A model generated the notes under the pieces. The model had not been told where the DNA came from, ran no database searches, and saw only the letters and a list, made by a program, of their open reading frames with translations. From Winogradskyella luteola (lineage in GTDB: Bacteria > Bacteroidota > Bacteroidia > Flavobacteriales > Flavobacteriaceae): a stretch of 64,000 bases of DNA. Shown in pieces: positions 17,965 to 21,777 of this stretch (positions within the stretch are counted from its first letter, which is position 1; each line of letters opens with the position of its first letter). The DNA lies in contig NZ_JAGSPD010000015.1 in NCBI RefSeq assembly GCF_019203985.1, positions 1 to 64,000 of the forward strand. The letters run 5' to 3'. The position numbers were made by a program, and so were the translations under genes.

Positions 17965-18010
17965 TTGATTTATTTTTTTAAGGTTAAAAATCAACCTAAT
18001 TTATTTATGC

Positions 18011-18084
18011 ACACTTCGACTTTGCTCAGTGTAAACTTATTGAGAGACTTCCTTCGACTACGCTTAGGACAAACTTCTCACCTC
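18011..18084. repeat. Two 'ttcgact' interspersed repeats around a displaced tRNA-Trp 3' fragment
   Basis: Repeat copies lie at 18011-18038 (ttcgactttgctcag core) and 18051-18084 (ttcgactacgcttag core, then aaacttctcacctcg). Between them is ttgagagact (18040-18049), identical to 18105-18114 near the 3' end of the tRNA-Trp gene, 65 bp away. An open frame across this stretch is only the translated repeat. Confidence 0.75.
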
Positions 18085-18098
18085 GTTTTACCTTTTTG

Positions 18099-18171
18099 CA
18101 CGGGTTGAGAGACTCGAACTCCCGACACCTGGTTTTGGAGACCAGTGCTCTACCAACTGAGCTAAACCCGT
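18099..18171 (-). tRNA. tRNA-Trp (anticodon CCA)
   Basis: A full 73-nt cloverleaf: 7-bp acceptor (18165-18171 with 18100-18106), anticodon CCA at 18138-18136, T-arm with GTTCGAG. CCA is not encoded at the 3' end. Its place between tuf and secE is conserved in Bacteroidota. Confidence 0.97.
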
Positions 18172-18182
18172 AAACAACAATC

Positions 18183-18210
18183 AAGGCATCCCGATTTTTT
18201 CGGGACACCT
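18183..18210. other. Hairpin between tuf and tRNA-Trp
   Basis: A 6-bp stem (tcccga at 18189-18194, tcggga at 18200-18205) with a T5 loop, plus partly complementary flanks (aagg and cctt). On the minus strand no U tract follows, so it may be a processing or mRNA 3'-end protection signal rather than an intrinsic terminator. Confidence 0.45.
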
Positions 18211-18234
18211 TAATTAATTATTTAACTATTTTGT

Positions 18235-19422
18235 TTAGTCTAAAATTTCAGTTACCTGACCAGCACCAACTGTTCTACCACCTTCACGGATAGCGAAACG
18301 TAAACCTACGTTCATTGCAATTGGTTGGATTAACTCAACAGTGATTGTTAAGTTATCACCAGGCATTACCATTTCAACTCCATCAGGAAGCGCAATGTTT
18401 CCTGTTACGTCAGTTGTACGTACGTAGAACTGTGGACGGTAGTTGTTATGGAATGGTGTGTGACGACCACCTTCTTCTTTCTTAAGGATATAAACCTCAG
18501 CTTTAAATTTAGCGTGTGGTGTTACAGAACCTGGCTTAGTAATTACCATACCTCTAGAGATTTGAGTTTTCTCAATACCTCTTAATAAGATACCAGCATT
18601 ATCACCAGCTTCTCCTCTATCTAAAATTTGACGGAACATCTCAATACCTGTAATAGTAGATGTTAATTTCTCAGCACCCATACCGATAATCTCAACCGGA
18701 TCACCTGTGTTAGCAACACCAGTTTCGATACGACCTGTAGCAACAGTTCCACGACCAGTGATTGAGAATACATCTTCGATAGGCATTAAGAAAGGCTTGT
18801 CCATATCACGTACTGGCTCTTCAATCCACTCATCAACATTCTTCATTAATTCCATTACTGTGTCAACCCACTTTTGCTCACCGTTAAGTGCACCTAAAGC
18901 AGAACCAGCAATTACAGGACCATTATCACCATCATACTCGTAGAATGATAATAAATCCCTGATTTCCATTTCAACTAATTCTAATAACTCTTCATCATCA
19001 ACCATATCCACTTTGTTCATGAATACAACGATACGTGGAATACCTACCTGACGACCAAGTAAGATGTGCTCACGTGTTTGTGGCATAGGACCATCTGTTG
19101 CAGCAACAACTAAGATAGCACCATCCATTTGAGCAGCACCAGTAACCATGTTCTTTACGTAATCCGCGTGACCTGGACAGTCAACGTGAGCGTAATGACG
19201 ATTTGCTGTTGCATATTCTACGTGTGAAGTATTAATTGTAATACCTCTTTCTTTTTCTTCTGGTGCATTATCGATTTGATCGAAATCTTTTGCTTCAGAT
19301 AAACCTGCATCAGCTAATACTTTAGTAATAGCAGCAGTTAAAGTTGTTTTACCGTGATCTACGTGTCCAATAGTACCTATATTAAGGTGTGGCTTTGAAC
19401 GATCGAAAGTTGCCTTTGCCAT
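18235..19422 (-). CDS. tuf: Elongation factor Tu
   Basis: This 395-residue GTPase delivers aminoacyl-tRNA to the ribosome. Its G motifs are GHVDHGKTT (residues 19-27), RGITINTSH (switch I), DCPGHADY (G3) and NKVD (G4). Beta-barrel domains 2 and 3 follow. The length is typical. It is the only tuf copy in the window and is preceded on the same strand by a tRNA-Thr(GGT) gene, 63 bp upstream, suggesting cotranscription with the tRNA cluster. Confidence 0.99.
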
Positions 19423-19485
19423 GTTTAATTTATTTAATCTTAATTTATATTAGTGTTCAATTTAAATTCTATTCCTTTTAAAAAG

Positions 19486-19557
19486 AGCCAACGACGGGAT
19501 TTGAACCCGTGGCCTCTTCCTTACCAAGGAAACGCTCTACCCCTGAGCTACGCCGGC
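19486..19557 (-). tRNA. tRNA-Thr (anticodon GGT)
   Basis: A 72-nt cloverleaf. The acceptor pairs 19551-19557 with 19487-19493, including two G-U pairs. The anticodon GGT is at 19525-19523. It lies just upstream of tuf. Confidence 0.96.
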
Positions 19558-19590
19558 GCAAAGTGTTTACATCCTCATTACAATTATGAG

Positions 19591-19610
19591 ATTCCTGCCT
19601 TCGCAGGAAT
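19591..19610. repeat. Interspersed 20-bp palindrome, copy 2
   Basis: This 20-mer is identical to 6651-6670. It directly abuts the displaced tRNA-Gly 3' fragment that begins at 19611. Confidence 0.88.
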
Positions 19611-19664
19611 TTTAGAGCGGGAGACCAGTTTTACTTCGACTACACTCAGCATAAACTTCTCACC
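19611..19664. repeat. Displaced tRNA-Gly 3' fragment followed by an interspersed repeat
   Basis: tttagagcgggagaccag (19611-19628) is identical over 18 nt to 19724-19741, the 3' end of tRNA-Gly plus 6 nt beyond it. It is followed by a repeat at 19633-19664 (ttcgactacactcagc, then ataaacttctcacc). The fragment lies 113 bp downstream of the intact tRNA. Confidence 0.88.
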
Positions 19665-19728
19665 TGCTCACTCATTCTTTTAAACAATACTCAAAAACGA
19701 ATAATGTATAATTTAGAATGAACTTTAG

Positions 19729-19801
19729 AGCGGGAGACCAGGTTCGAACTGGCGACATTCAGCTTGGAAGGCTGACGCTCTACCAACTGAGCTACTCCCG
19801 C
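19729..19801 (-). tRNA. tRNA-Gly (anticodon TCC)
   Basis: A 73-nt cloverleaf with a perfect 7-bp acceptor (19795-19801 with 19730-19736) and anticodon TCC at 19768-19766. The T-arm carries GTTCGAA. Confidence 0.97.
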
Positions 19802-19906
19802 TTTTATAATTAAGTATTCTTAATTAATAGTTATCAATATTTCAATTTTTGGATTACTTTGCTTATCTGATAAATCCCTAAACAAATTATTGAACTCAAC
19901 TTCTAT

Positions 19907-20012
19907 TTGTATTTAGGATTACCTCGCTATAGCTCGGTGATCCGTGAAGGGAGACCCTTCACTAAGAATTTTGAAACGCAGCCTTACAAAAGCAAGCTTT
20001 TGACGACTACTT
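19907..20012. other. Hairpin-dense spacer downstream of tRNA-Tyr
   Basis: Three inverted repeats lie in about 100 bp: ggattacc and ggtgatcc (one mismatch) around a gctatagc core, gtgaaggg with cccttcac (19944-19951, 19955-19962), and aaaagc with gctttt near 19998-20011. No gene is seen. It could be a palindromic repeat element or a structured RNA. Confidence 0.45.
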
Positions 20013-20026
20013 ATTCAAAATCTTTG

Positions 20027-20109
20027 TGGGGAGAGCAGGATTCGAACCTGCGAAGTTAAAAAACAACAGAGTTACAGTCTGTCCTCGTTGGCCGCTTGAG
20101 TATCTCCCC
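20027..20109 (-). tRNA. tRNA-Tyr (anticodon GTA)
   Basis: An 83-nt class II tRNA with a long variable arm. The acceptor pairs 20103-20109 with 20028-20034, and the anticodon GTA is at 20075-20073. Unlike three of its neighbours it has no displaced 3' copy downstream. Confidence 0.97.
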
Positions 20110-20168
20110 AAAACTAATTGTGAATTCAAAATTTTGAATTTCAGAATTAGTAGATTTTTCAATATTTC

Positions 20169-20216
20169 AGAGCCGATGGAGGGACTCCATTCGACTACGC
20201 TCAGGATAAACTTCTC
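20169..20216. repeat. Displaced tRNA-Thr 3' fragment followed by an interspersed repeat
   Basis: agagccgatggagggactc (20169-20187) is identical over 19 nt to 20286-20304 at the 3' end of tRNA-Thr(TGT), 117 bp away. It runs directly into a repeat at 20189-20216 (ttcgactacgctcagg, then ataaacttctc). Confidence 0.9.
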
Positions 20217-20287
20217 GTCCCTATATTAATTCCGATTGCCATTACAACTATCCCAATTAACACCTGAGTTAATTTTCAATACATTAG

Positions 20288-20361
20288 AGCCGATGGAGGG
20301 ACTCGAACCCACGACCTGCTGATTACAAATCAGCTGCTCTAGCCAGCTGAGCTACATCGGC
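20288..20361 (-). tRNA. tRNA-Thr (anticodon TGT)
   Basis: A 74-nt cloverleaf with acceptor 20355-20361 paired with 20289-20295 and anticodon TGT at 20327-20325. It is the first tRNA of the cluster leading to tuf. Confidence 0.97.
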
Positions 20362-20840: not shown

Positions 20841-21731
20841 TCAACTTTGATTCCTCGGATGTGACTTAGCATGTACTTTTTTTAATTCTGCTATACTATT
20901 GTGTGTGTATATTTGTGTAGCTGCTAAACTGGTATGTCCAAGAAGTTCTTTTACTGCATTTAAATCTGCTCCTTCATTTAATAAGTGTGTTGCAAATGAG
21001 TGCCTCAATACATGCGGGCTGCATTTTGCTTTTGAAGATGCTTCACTAAAATACTTATTTATTATTCTGTAAACAAGCATTTCGTAAATTTTAAACCCTT
21101 TTTTTGTTAAAAATAAGGCTTCAATATCTTCAATATTCGGTAAATGGGTTCTGTAATCTAAATATTGTTTGATTGAAACAACTAAAGAATCTATAAGAGG
21201 GATATACCGCTCTTTATTACGCTTACCCAAAACCTTTATCTGCTTTTTACTAAAATCTATATCCGATATTTTTATATTTACTAACTCAATACGTCTTATA
21301 CCTGTTGCATAAAAAAGCTCAACGATAAGATGATTTCGTGAACTTTCGAAATCTTTAACTTCTATTGAATGTTCTAGTACGTGTTTTAATTCATCTTCAG
21401 AAAATGGTAACTGCACTTTTTTACTAACCTTTAACGCTTTGTGCTTCTTTAAAGGATTTGTTTCGATAGAATGTGTTTTTTGTAAAAACTTGTAGTATGT
21501 GCTTAACGAAGAAACTTTCCTGTTGATTGTTCTGTTAGAAATTCCGCTATTGACCAATTCCACAATCCACTGTCTTATTTCTGAATAGCCTACCTTACCA
21601 ATAGGTTCTGAATCGTGGTGCTCTTTCAAAAACTCTTGAAACATCTCTAAGTCCATTTTATAAGCTAAAACCGTATGCTTGGAATAGTTTTTCTCTAGCA
21701 ATAGATAATCTAAAAATGCTTTTAAGGCCAT
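20841..21731 (-). CDS. xerC: Tyrosine recombinase XerC
   Basis: This 296-residue recombinase resolves chromosome dimers at dif with XerD. The N-terminal SAM-like domain includes LLLEKNYSKHT. The catalytic residues are visible: Arg in ATGIRRIEL, Lys in LGKRNKERY, His and Arg in HVLRHSFATHLL, His in LLGHTS and Tyr in TQIYTH. I chose MALKAFLDYL at 21731. An ATG at 21749 adds MSQEKV, but a promoter-like TTTG-N19-TATATTTA ends at that ATG, which favours the shorter form. I see no rpsU gene upstream. Confidence 0.93.
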   Translation of the reverse strand: MALKAFLDYLLLEKNYSKHTVLAYKMDLEMFQEFLKEHHDSEPIGKVGYSEIRQWIVELVNSGISNRTINRKVSSLSTYYKFLQKTHSIETNPLKKHKALKVSKKVQLPFSEDELKHVLEHSIEVKDFESSRNHLIVELFYATGIRRIELVNIKISDIDFSKKQIKVLGKRNKERYIPLIDSLVVSIKQYLDYRTHLPNIEDIEALFLTKKGFKIYEMLVYRIINKYFSEASSKAKCSPHVLRHSFATHLLNEGADLNAVKELLGHTSLAATQIYTHNSIAELKKVHAKSHPRNQS

Positions 21732-21777
21732 AACTTTTTCTTGACTCATTAAATATAAGTATTAATAAAGTTAGTCC

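Follow-up and report, generated by a model that had tools for sequence, protein, structure and literature searches.

Repeats carrying tRNA 3' ends behind tRNA genes of Winogradskyella luteola: probable relatives of the Escherichia coli RtT repeats

Short repeats follow several clustered tRNA genes in a 64,000-nucleotide stretch of the Winogradskyella luteola genome (Flavobacteriaceae; contig NZ_JAGSPD010000015.1, positions 1 to 64,000), hereafter the window, and each is bordered by a displaced copy of the 3' end of the tRNA behind which it lies. In this study, we compared these units with those found in related and distant genomes. We found a common layout with a junction at the T-loop base A58, copies of the host's own tail and a short arm (P1) complementary to the start of the copy, as well as precise empty sites, arrays in tandem and variation in copy number. 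Altogether, these results make it probable, though well short of certain, that the repeats of the window are RtT-like tRNA-tail insertion modules, belonging to a family that includes the tyrT/tyrV repeats of Escherichia coli. Such a module would comprise the tail from nucleotide 59 to the 3' end, a trailer, P1, GAGAAG(TTTA), a hairpin and an A, and would sit directly after A58. Its insertion there would leave the tRNA with an intact 3' end and push the original tail downstream.

Results

Units behind three tRNAs of the window

Own-tail units stand behind three of the five tRNAs of the window cluster, namely those for Trp, Gly and Thr-tgt (Table 1). In the direction of the tRNA, the trailer is followed by P1, GAGAAG, the hairpin, an A and the copy of the tRNA's own 3' end; the Thr unit, for instance, reads GGGAC-GAGAAGTTTATCCTGAGCGTAGTCGAATGG-AGTCCCTCCATCGGCTC. 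The initial annotation of this DNA had reported the three displaced tails, and all of them lie where it placed them. The Gly copy has one base altered near its start. The displaced Trp tail reads AGTCTCTCAA ... GTGC, its CCC having been replaced by a second repeat, which is why the Trp copy measures only 10 nucleotides. Allowing up to three mismatches, the repeat occurs four times in the window, as compared to a mean of 0.00 in 100 shuffled sequences.

Table 1. Positions of the tRNA genes, unit cores and displaced tails in the window. Unit cores comprise P1, GAGAAG, the hairpin and the start of the tail copy.
Feature	Position	Strand	Covariance model E-value
Remaining GTGC of the displaced Trp tail	18009-18012	-	
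Second repeat hairpin, within the displaced Trp tail at the place of CCC	~18013-18039	-	
Displaced Trp tail, first 10 nucleotides (AGTCTCTCAA)	18040-18049	-	
Trp unit core, P1 AGGT	18041-18087	-	9.9e-13
tRNA-Trp(cca), intact host of unit 1	18098-18171	-	
tRNA-Thr-ggt	19485-19557	-	
Displaced tRNA-Gly 3' end copy, 18 nucleotides	19611-19628	-	
Gly unit core, P1 AGGT	19623-19669	-	9.9e-14
tRNA-Gly(tcc), intact host of unit 2	19728-19801	-	
tRNA-Tyr	20026-20109	-	
Displaced tRNA-Thr(tgt) 3' end copy, 19 nucleotides	20169-20187	-	
Thr unit core, P1 GGGAC	20178-20224	-	9.9e-16
tRNA-Thr(tgt), intact host of unit 3	20287-20361	-	

Close relatives and empty sites

We compared the window with 54 of 59 relatives from the same genus, giving 55 stretches of one tRNA cluster with 272 tRNAs. 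A downstream copy of the last 17 nucleotides (at most one mismatch) was present for 8 of the 272 tRNAs (Gly in three genomes, Thr-tgt in three and Trp in two), and the repeat directly precedes the copy in all eight. The best match of the remaining tRNAs had 4 mismatches in one case, 5 in three, including the Trp of the window, and 6 to 10 in 260. The case with 4 mismatches is tRNA-Tyr of genome G011, where the T-loop of the copy holds a different hairpin; at locus L046, 3' of tRNA-Tyr, a Tyr tail copy with a different T-loop hairpin (TCCTGACGCTTCGGGA) is not preceded by GAGAAG.

Empty sites at these tRNAs, which the initial annotation had proposed to look for, do exist. In G034, taaattccttctaaagaagg comes straight after tRNA-Thr, whereas in G011 it comes after the displaced copy, 115 base pairs having been inserted directly behind A58. 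The comparison of the empty site of G010 with the window gave a similar picture for tRNA-Trp, as the displaced GTGC is followed by a trailer resembling that of G010. For tRNA-Gly, a CTGCGAAGGCAGG-like trailer lies within 45 nucleotides of the tRNA end in 26 of the 55 stretches, and in the window it stands behind the displaced Gly copy. The empty sites agree with a clean insertion right after A58. This layout agrees with the earlier proposal of a T-loop insertion that restores the 3' end of the tRNA, and the units are, as also proposed, far too small for autonomy.

A common design at many tRNAs

A larger set of 164 distinct unit-bearing tRNA loci was selected by a GAGAAGTTTA-like motif (at most one change) and an own-tail copy (at most four mismatches); this choice accounts in part for the motif being conserved and a copy being present. 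The set covers 20 anticodon types (49 Thr-tgt, 23 Leu-tag, 15 Gln, 15 Trp, 13 Gly-tcc and others). The first copy is perfect over 16 nucleotides in 115 loci and carries one to four mismatches in 49. Unit lengths range from 58 to 173 base pairs with peaks near 64 and near 113, a 21-nucleotide hairpin stretch is found in 118 loci, and the arrays hold one, two, three, four or six units in 133, 22, 7, 1 and 1 loci, respectively.

Three further features were not selected for. Copy identity begins at A58 or one base earlier in 162 of the 164 loci, the base at the copy start is an A in all of them, and P1 pairs with copy nucleotides 59, 60, 61 and 62 in 158, 156, 154 and 143 loci, respectively (GU allowed). 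The initial annotation had located the breaks at the T-loop, with a TCGA shared by tRNA and repeat. A common breakpoint indeed exists, and it is A58; the repeat's own TCGA is incidental, since modules whose hairpins contain no TCGA occur in relatives from other families and classes (L343, L348 and L356). Template switching at the shared TCGA, another early suggestion, does not hold as stated, as modules with these TCGA-free hairpins also have their junction at the T-loop A.

The last two bases of P1 follow the copy closely, with AC for GT in 90 loci, GC for GC in 24, GT for AC in 9, AT for AT in 4 and AG for CT in 2, in addition to the wobble combination GC for GT in 9 and rarer exceptions; TT occurs in only 4 of the 164. 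We also considered P1 as a copy of the 5' strand of the T-stem and set this origin aside: the 129 discriminating positions are undecided (49 matches to the T-stem strand, 53 to the complement of the copy), but P1 ends in two bases that agree with the complement of nucleotides 59-60. Across the first 34 cores examined, pairing is present in 85.3% of the pair cells, as compared to 45-47% (maximum 47.1%) when slid by one column. Covariation in these cores amounts to 0.418, a value reached by none of 500 shuffles, and 54 two-sided changes were counted in two helices, against a shuffled mean of 22.8. Folding energy was discarded as a proof of structure, since three of the four cores scored as single-stranded DNA were not significant and only L343 beat its shuffles (z -2.36).

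The same design in E. coli

The 178-base-pair repeats at tyrT/tyrV of E. coli also have copies that begin at A58, and P1 (GGGGAAGGAT) and GAGAAG precede their structured part; of the four units in E. coli, one has GAGAAC instead. Compared with K-12, E. coli NZ_CP148282 is without repeats at both tRNA-Tyr genes and represents an empty allele. A repeat match was found in 4695 of 5426 E. coli genomes and, at this sensitivity, in none of the others. The annotation of K-12 includes RttR, whose 3' end coincides with the end of the tail copy.

This annotation, along with the existence of RtT as an Rfam family, speaks for a functional role, in which the unit would encode an RtT-like RNA or a mimic of the tRNA 3' end, acting in processing or modification and kept for that function, insertion and loss being secondary. 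The two-sided changes of P1 and P2 point in the same direction, as do a tandem GA motif noted in RtT in the available part of one report (PMC7657543) and the listing of rttR among small RNAs containing REP sequences in that of another (PMC12306157). However, the presence of the unit is patchy, both in the 55 stretches of the cluster and among the E. coli genomes. Moreover, the long units lie, by reading, behind a terminator-like hairpin, so that most of them would be poorly transcribed. Judging from these sequences, we regard a conserved RNA function as rather unlikely.

Trailers and the growth of arrays

Tandem arrays repeat every 112-117 base pairs or so. The trailers before and after a unit are strongly alike (score of at least 80) in 20 of 119 loci, as compared to 0 of 2380 cross pairs, and they differ in the majority of loci. 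By reading of the 30 loci with scores of at least 50, the likeness fades in about 13 around the point where the terminator-like hairpin ends (most clearly in L128, L164, L228, L231 and L237) and continues through P1-GAGAAG in about 17, the last unit often being cut inside the core. This comparison suggests that arrays grow in place and that some units are made from the local tail and terminator. Arrays may expand and shrink by recombination between the tail copies of 17-19 nucleotides.

The likeness of same-locus trailers, and its end near the terminator-like hairpin, also favour a passive origin by hairpin-induced replication slippage among the T-arm, the terminator hairpin and the repeat hairpin, with no dedicated mechanism involved. 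Slippage, though, leaves unexplained why one conserved linear motif, GAGAAG, recurs behind tRNAs of 20 anticodon types and across several phyla, and why P1 matches the last two T-loop bases. It is distinctly unlikely as a full account of the units.

Linkage to tRNAs and host range

A scan that ignored tRNAs, performed with the 18-base pattern ACGAGAAGTTTAYCCYGA derived from units on one genome per species, returned at least 116 genomic loci. Among the 116 matches listed, 88 have a tRNA on the same strand within 300 base pairs upstream, and none has an opposite-strand tRNA within 300 base pairs. An own-tail copy (at most 3 mismatches in 16) accompanies 77 of the 116, all of them among the 88 tRNA-linked ones. 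The same-genus pattern search gave matches in 19 of 68 genomes, and none with the reversed pattern. A same-strand upstream tRNA is present at 27 of the 30 loci listed there, the three exceptions being L100 and L119, which belong to one array of G011, and L126, at a contig end.

The covariance model matched 48 of the 68 same-genus genomes (E 0.01), many of these matches being partial and due to the hairpin core CTGAGCNNAGTCGAA, which is also dispersed in the genomes. It further matched 104 of 249 family genomes (E 0.001) and 15 of 296 phylum genomes (E 1e-5). In four of the six matched phylum genomes outside the family (L342/L356, L343, L347 and L348), the hairpin differs, but P1, the tail copy and GAGAAGTTTA or a close variant of it are retained; the matches in the other two (L344 and L349) are not at tRNAs. 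The 80 named rows of the tRNA-blind scan are mostly Bacteroidota. Those outside this phylum all come from metagenome assemblies, with possible binning errors: Chlorobiota (L371), Candidatus Magasanikbacteria (L377), Patescibacteria (L394, with the tRNA 580 base pairs away) and Neomarinimicrobiota (L425, an array in a stretch that does not include a tRNA). Altogether, the RtT-like module family is seen in several phyla.

The transfer-messenger RNA (tmRNA) gene serves as host of one array (G357), whose units copy the end of the tRNA-like part from the T-loop onward, with P1 CGGGAG against CTCCCG. The tmRNA host indicates that the target is the T-arm and not any particular tRNA. In the tmRNA-hosted tandem array at L348:1100-1620, the last unit stops just after GAGAAG.

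Several arrays without a tRNA could be traced to an ISL3-type insertion (L247), prophage-like genes (L252), a gene pair (L250) or contig ends; L249 and L253 are further tRNA-less arrays, not accounted for in this way. At L247:18152-19650, where an array follows tRNA-His in G011, the ISL3-type element interrupts the first unit and has AAGTTTATG on either side of it. At L250:17757-19710, the tRNA-Leu unit holds two genes between tail and P1, coding for M78 (IrrE-like) and DUF4411/PIN proteins, perhaps a toxin-antitoxin pair. Arrays at or near contig ends were observed in L178, L186, L209, L222, L225 and L425, and arrays of this kind probably break assemblies and are under-counted. Phage carriage was considered and rejected, as 10 of 11 viral contig matches have no tRNA or unit nearby; the viral match L489 resembles, by reading, an Asn-type unit at a prophage end.

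Recombinase and nuclease genes near tRNAs

The initial annotation saw in the units possible relics or miniature, non-autonomous versions of integrative elements of the tyrosine-recombinase type. The duplication from the T-loop to the 3' end, with the tRNA restored, resembles attL/attR at tRNA genes, and a direct repeat of the tRNA 3' end is present at both borders. An XerC-like tyrosine recombinase gene (window 20841-21749) adjoins the tRNA cluster, but all 30 stretches tested contain it, including 24 whose genomes lack a unit at this cluster, and it is thus syntenic with or without units. Furthermore, no integrase was seen in a unit, and the small size of the units, the own-tail copies at 20 anticodon types, the P1-GAGAAG-hairpin design and the arrays argue against this origin, which we consider highly improbable. 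In G190, a run of genes that looks like a prophage (judged from its open reading frames, ORFs) lies at tRNA-Met and ends in a part of tRNA-Met starting at the anticodon, after which come the tail, the terminator and a unit. The unit there therefore looks older than the island.

GIY-YIG genes provide another lead, because they occur in tRNA loci of the same genomes, with the same hairpin core, and are commoner in unit-bearing genomes. According to this explanation, a tRNA-directed GIY-YIG nuclease would move the units, which would be its non-autonomous derivatives. In most cases read, these short genes have an intact tRNA on one side and a displaced partial copy of the same tRNA on the other, and they may make up a large family of tRNA homing elements. 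Loci of this type are L254, L264, L276, L319-L321, L323-L336, L181 and L251. When places were picked for short ORFs regardless of tRNA, a GIY-YIG ORF lay within 120 base pairs of a tRNA in 17 of 20. In the surroundings of 50 of 53 loci, the repeat core occurs 37 times within 250 base pairs of the domain match (50 loci x 500 base pairs) and 6 times further out (50 x 2000 base pairs). Inverted CTGAGCNNAGTCGAA hairpin cores flank the GIY-YIG genes of L256-L308 (left +16/-2, right -14/+5; 50 loci).

Unit-bearing genomes also have more GIY-YIG genes per megabase (Mann-Whitney p 7e-5, 68 genomes), an association uncorrected for kinship and based on Pfam counts that take in UvrC and other GIY-YIG proteins. 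The displaced copies beside these genes often hold a hairpin in the D-arm, anticodon arm or T-arm, and they break variously in these arms and not at A58. In addition, only five such ORFs were found in unit loci, L216 and L251 being one place and L254 lying 12 kilobases from the unit, and a nuclease gene stands beside a unit at only three places (L181, L198 and L216/L251) among the unit loci searched. Movement by such a nuclease is, on balance, decidedly unlikely. Long direct repeats (at least 38 nucleotides) flank 8 of 41 GIY-YIG genes, with 0 of 300 cross pairs above 21; we made no use of them as evidence, since one is a tRNA copy and several look like repeats of palindromic elements and not target duplications.

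Discussion

The RtT-like insertion module that we favour would be a small, non-coding and self-spreading element of low cost, doing little harm to its host, since it restores the tRNA. What spreads to new tRNAs may be the core of GAGAAG and hairpin, the tail and P1 being fitted to the tRNA at hand. Candidate routes of movement are copying from an RNA template, homing by a GIY-YIG nuclease and template switching at hairpins. In the first of these, the 3' portion of a pre-tRNA or tmRNA would be copied to DNA from the RNA 3' end (the mature end or that of the terminator), copying would stop at A58, and the product would be reinserted with the GAGAAG hairpin at the same gene. Such a route might explain the borders of the unit, because A58 and the RNA 3' end are both landmarks of the RNA; this is a guess, and we consider the route unlikely.

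Several observations weigh against the insertion-module interpretation or limit its reach. No enzyme or RNA is tied to the movement of the module. Loss by recombination between two tails would leave an identical empty site, so that single events may have run in either direction. Relatives were not down-weighted in the unit counts, the covariation or the genome-level tests. As single-stranded DNA, the window Thr core (z -0.31), the window Gly core (z 0.63) and L112 (z 1.98) fold no better than shuffles. For 28 of the 116 matches listed in the tRNA-blind scan, no tRNA was called within 300 base pairs; 13 of these have less than 300 base pairs of upstream sequence and 15 have more, the latter including chance-like matches (e.g., L366, L369, L398 and L399) and some without explanation. 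Regarding Rfam, searches at E<=5 (17 sources) and E<=2 (6 more and E. coli) gave no family on the units, and the RtT model detected the E. coli locus L492 only; the stretches otherwise matched tRNA, tmRNA, RNase P and a TPP riboswitch, besides some weak matches. A description of the module outside E. coli was not found in the titles and abstract openings of the open-access papers listed in our searches, and RtT was the only such family met in Rfam.

If the RtT-like family is real, the tyrT repeats, so far an isolated oddity of E. coli, become one member of a widespread and precisely inserted family. Their nature becomes directly testable, as A58, own-tail copies and GAGAAG are common to Bacteroidota, E. 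coli and the phyla seen in metagenomes. Should the RNA route hold, the module would represent a bacterial, non-coding, tRNA-derived retro-module across several phyla. In practical terms, displaced tRNA tails may pass for island borders in annotation, and the arrays that sit at contig ends matter for assembly.

The units share features with several known systems. Like REP elements (GTAG/CGTC-tagged palindromes) and their RAYT transposases, they involve short hairpins and the dispersed CTGAGCNNAGTCGAA core; unlike them, the GAGAAG-P1-tail context occurs at tRNAs, and the available part of a REP/RAYT account (PMC3733652) contains no description of tRNA tails. A Y1_Tnp match is present in 31 of 68 genomes, and its association with units is weak at best (Spearman p 0.048, Mann-Whitney p 0.12). 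As in tyrosine-recombinase integrative elements, the 3' part of the tRNA is targeted and the tail is both restored and displaced, but the units have no recombinase, an A58 junction, own-tail copies, and cargo genes in one case only (L250). Integron attC cassettes also form arrays with an arm near the unit end complementary to the start of the next unit; in contrast, attC boxes were not seen here, an integron integrase not having been searched for, and only the L250 unit has genes. Free-standing GIY-YIG homing of the T4 SegB type takes place near tRNA genes, and the GIY-YIG genes in tRNA regions recall it, whereas the units are without such an ORF. Finally, RtT (Rfam RF00391; rttR, tpr) differs in its unit of 178 base pairs, a structured part of about 80 nucleotides and GAGAAGCTTC, as compared to lengths near 64 or 113 base pairs, GAGAAGTTTA, and many tRNA types in addition to tmRNA for the units described here. 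Both, however, lie 3' of tRNAs and combine tail copies from A58, a complementary P1, GAGAAG and a structured region, both form tandem arrays, and both are present or absent among relatives, in the case of E. coli within the species.

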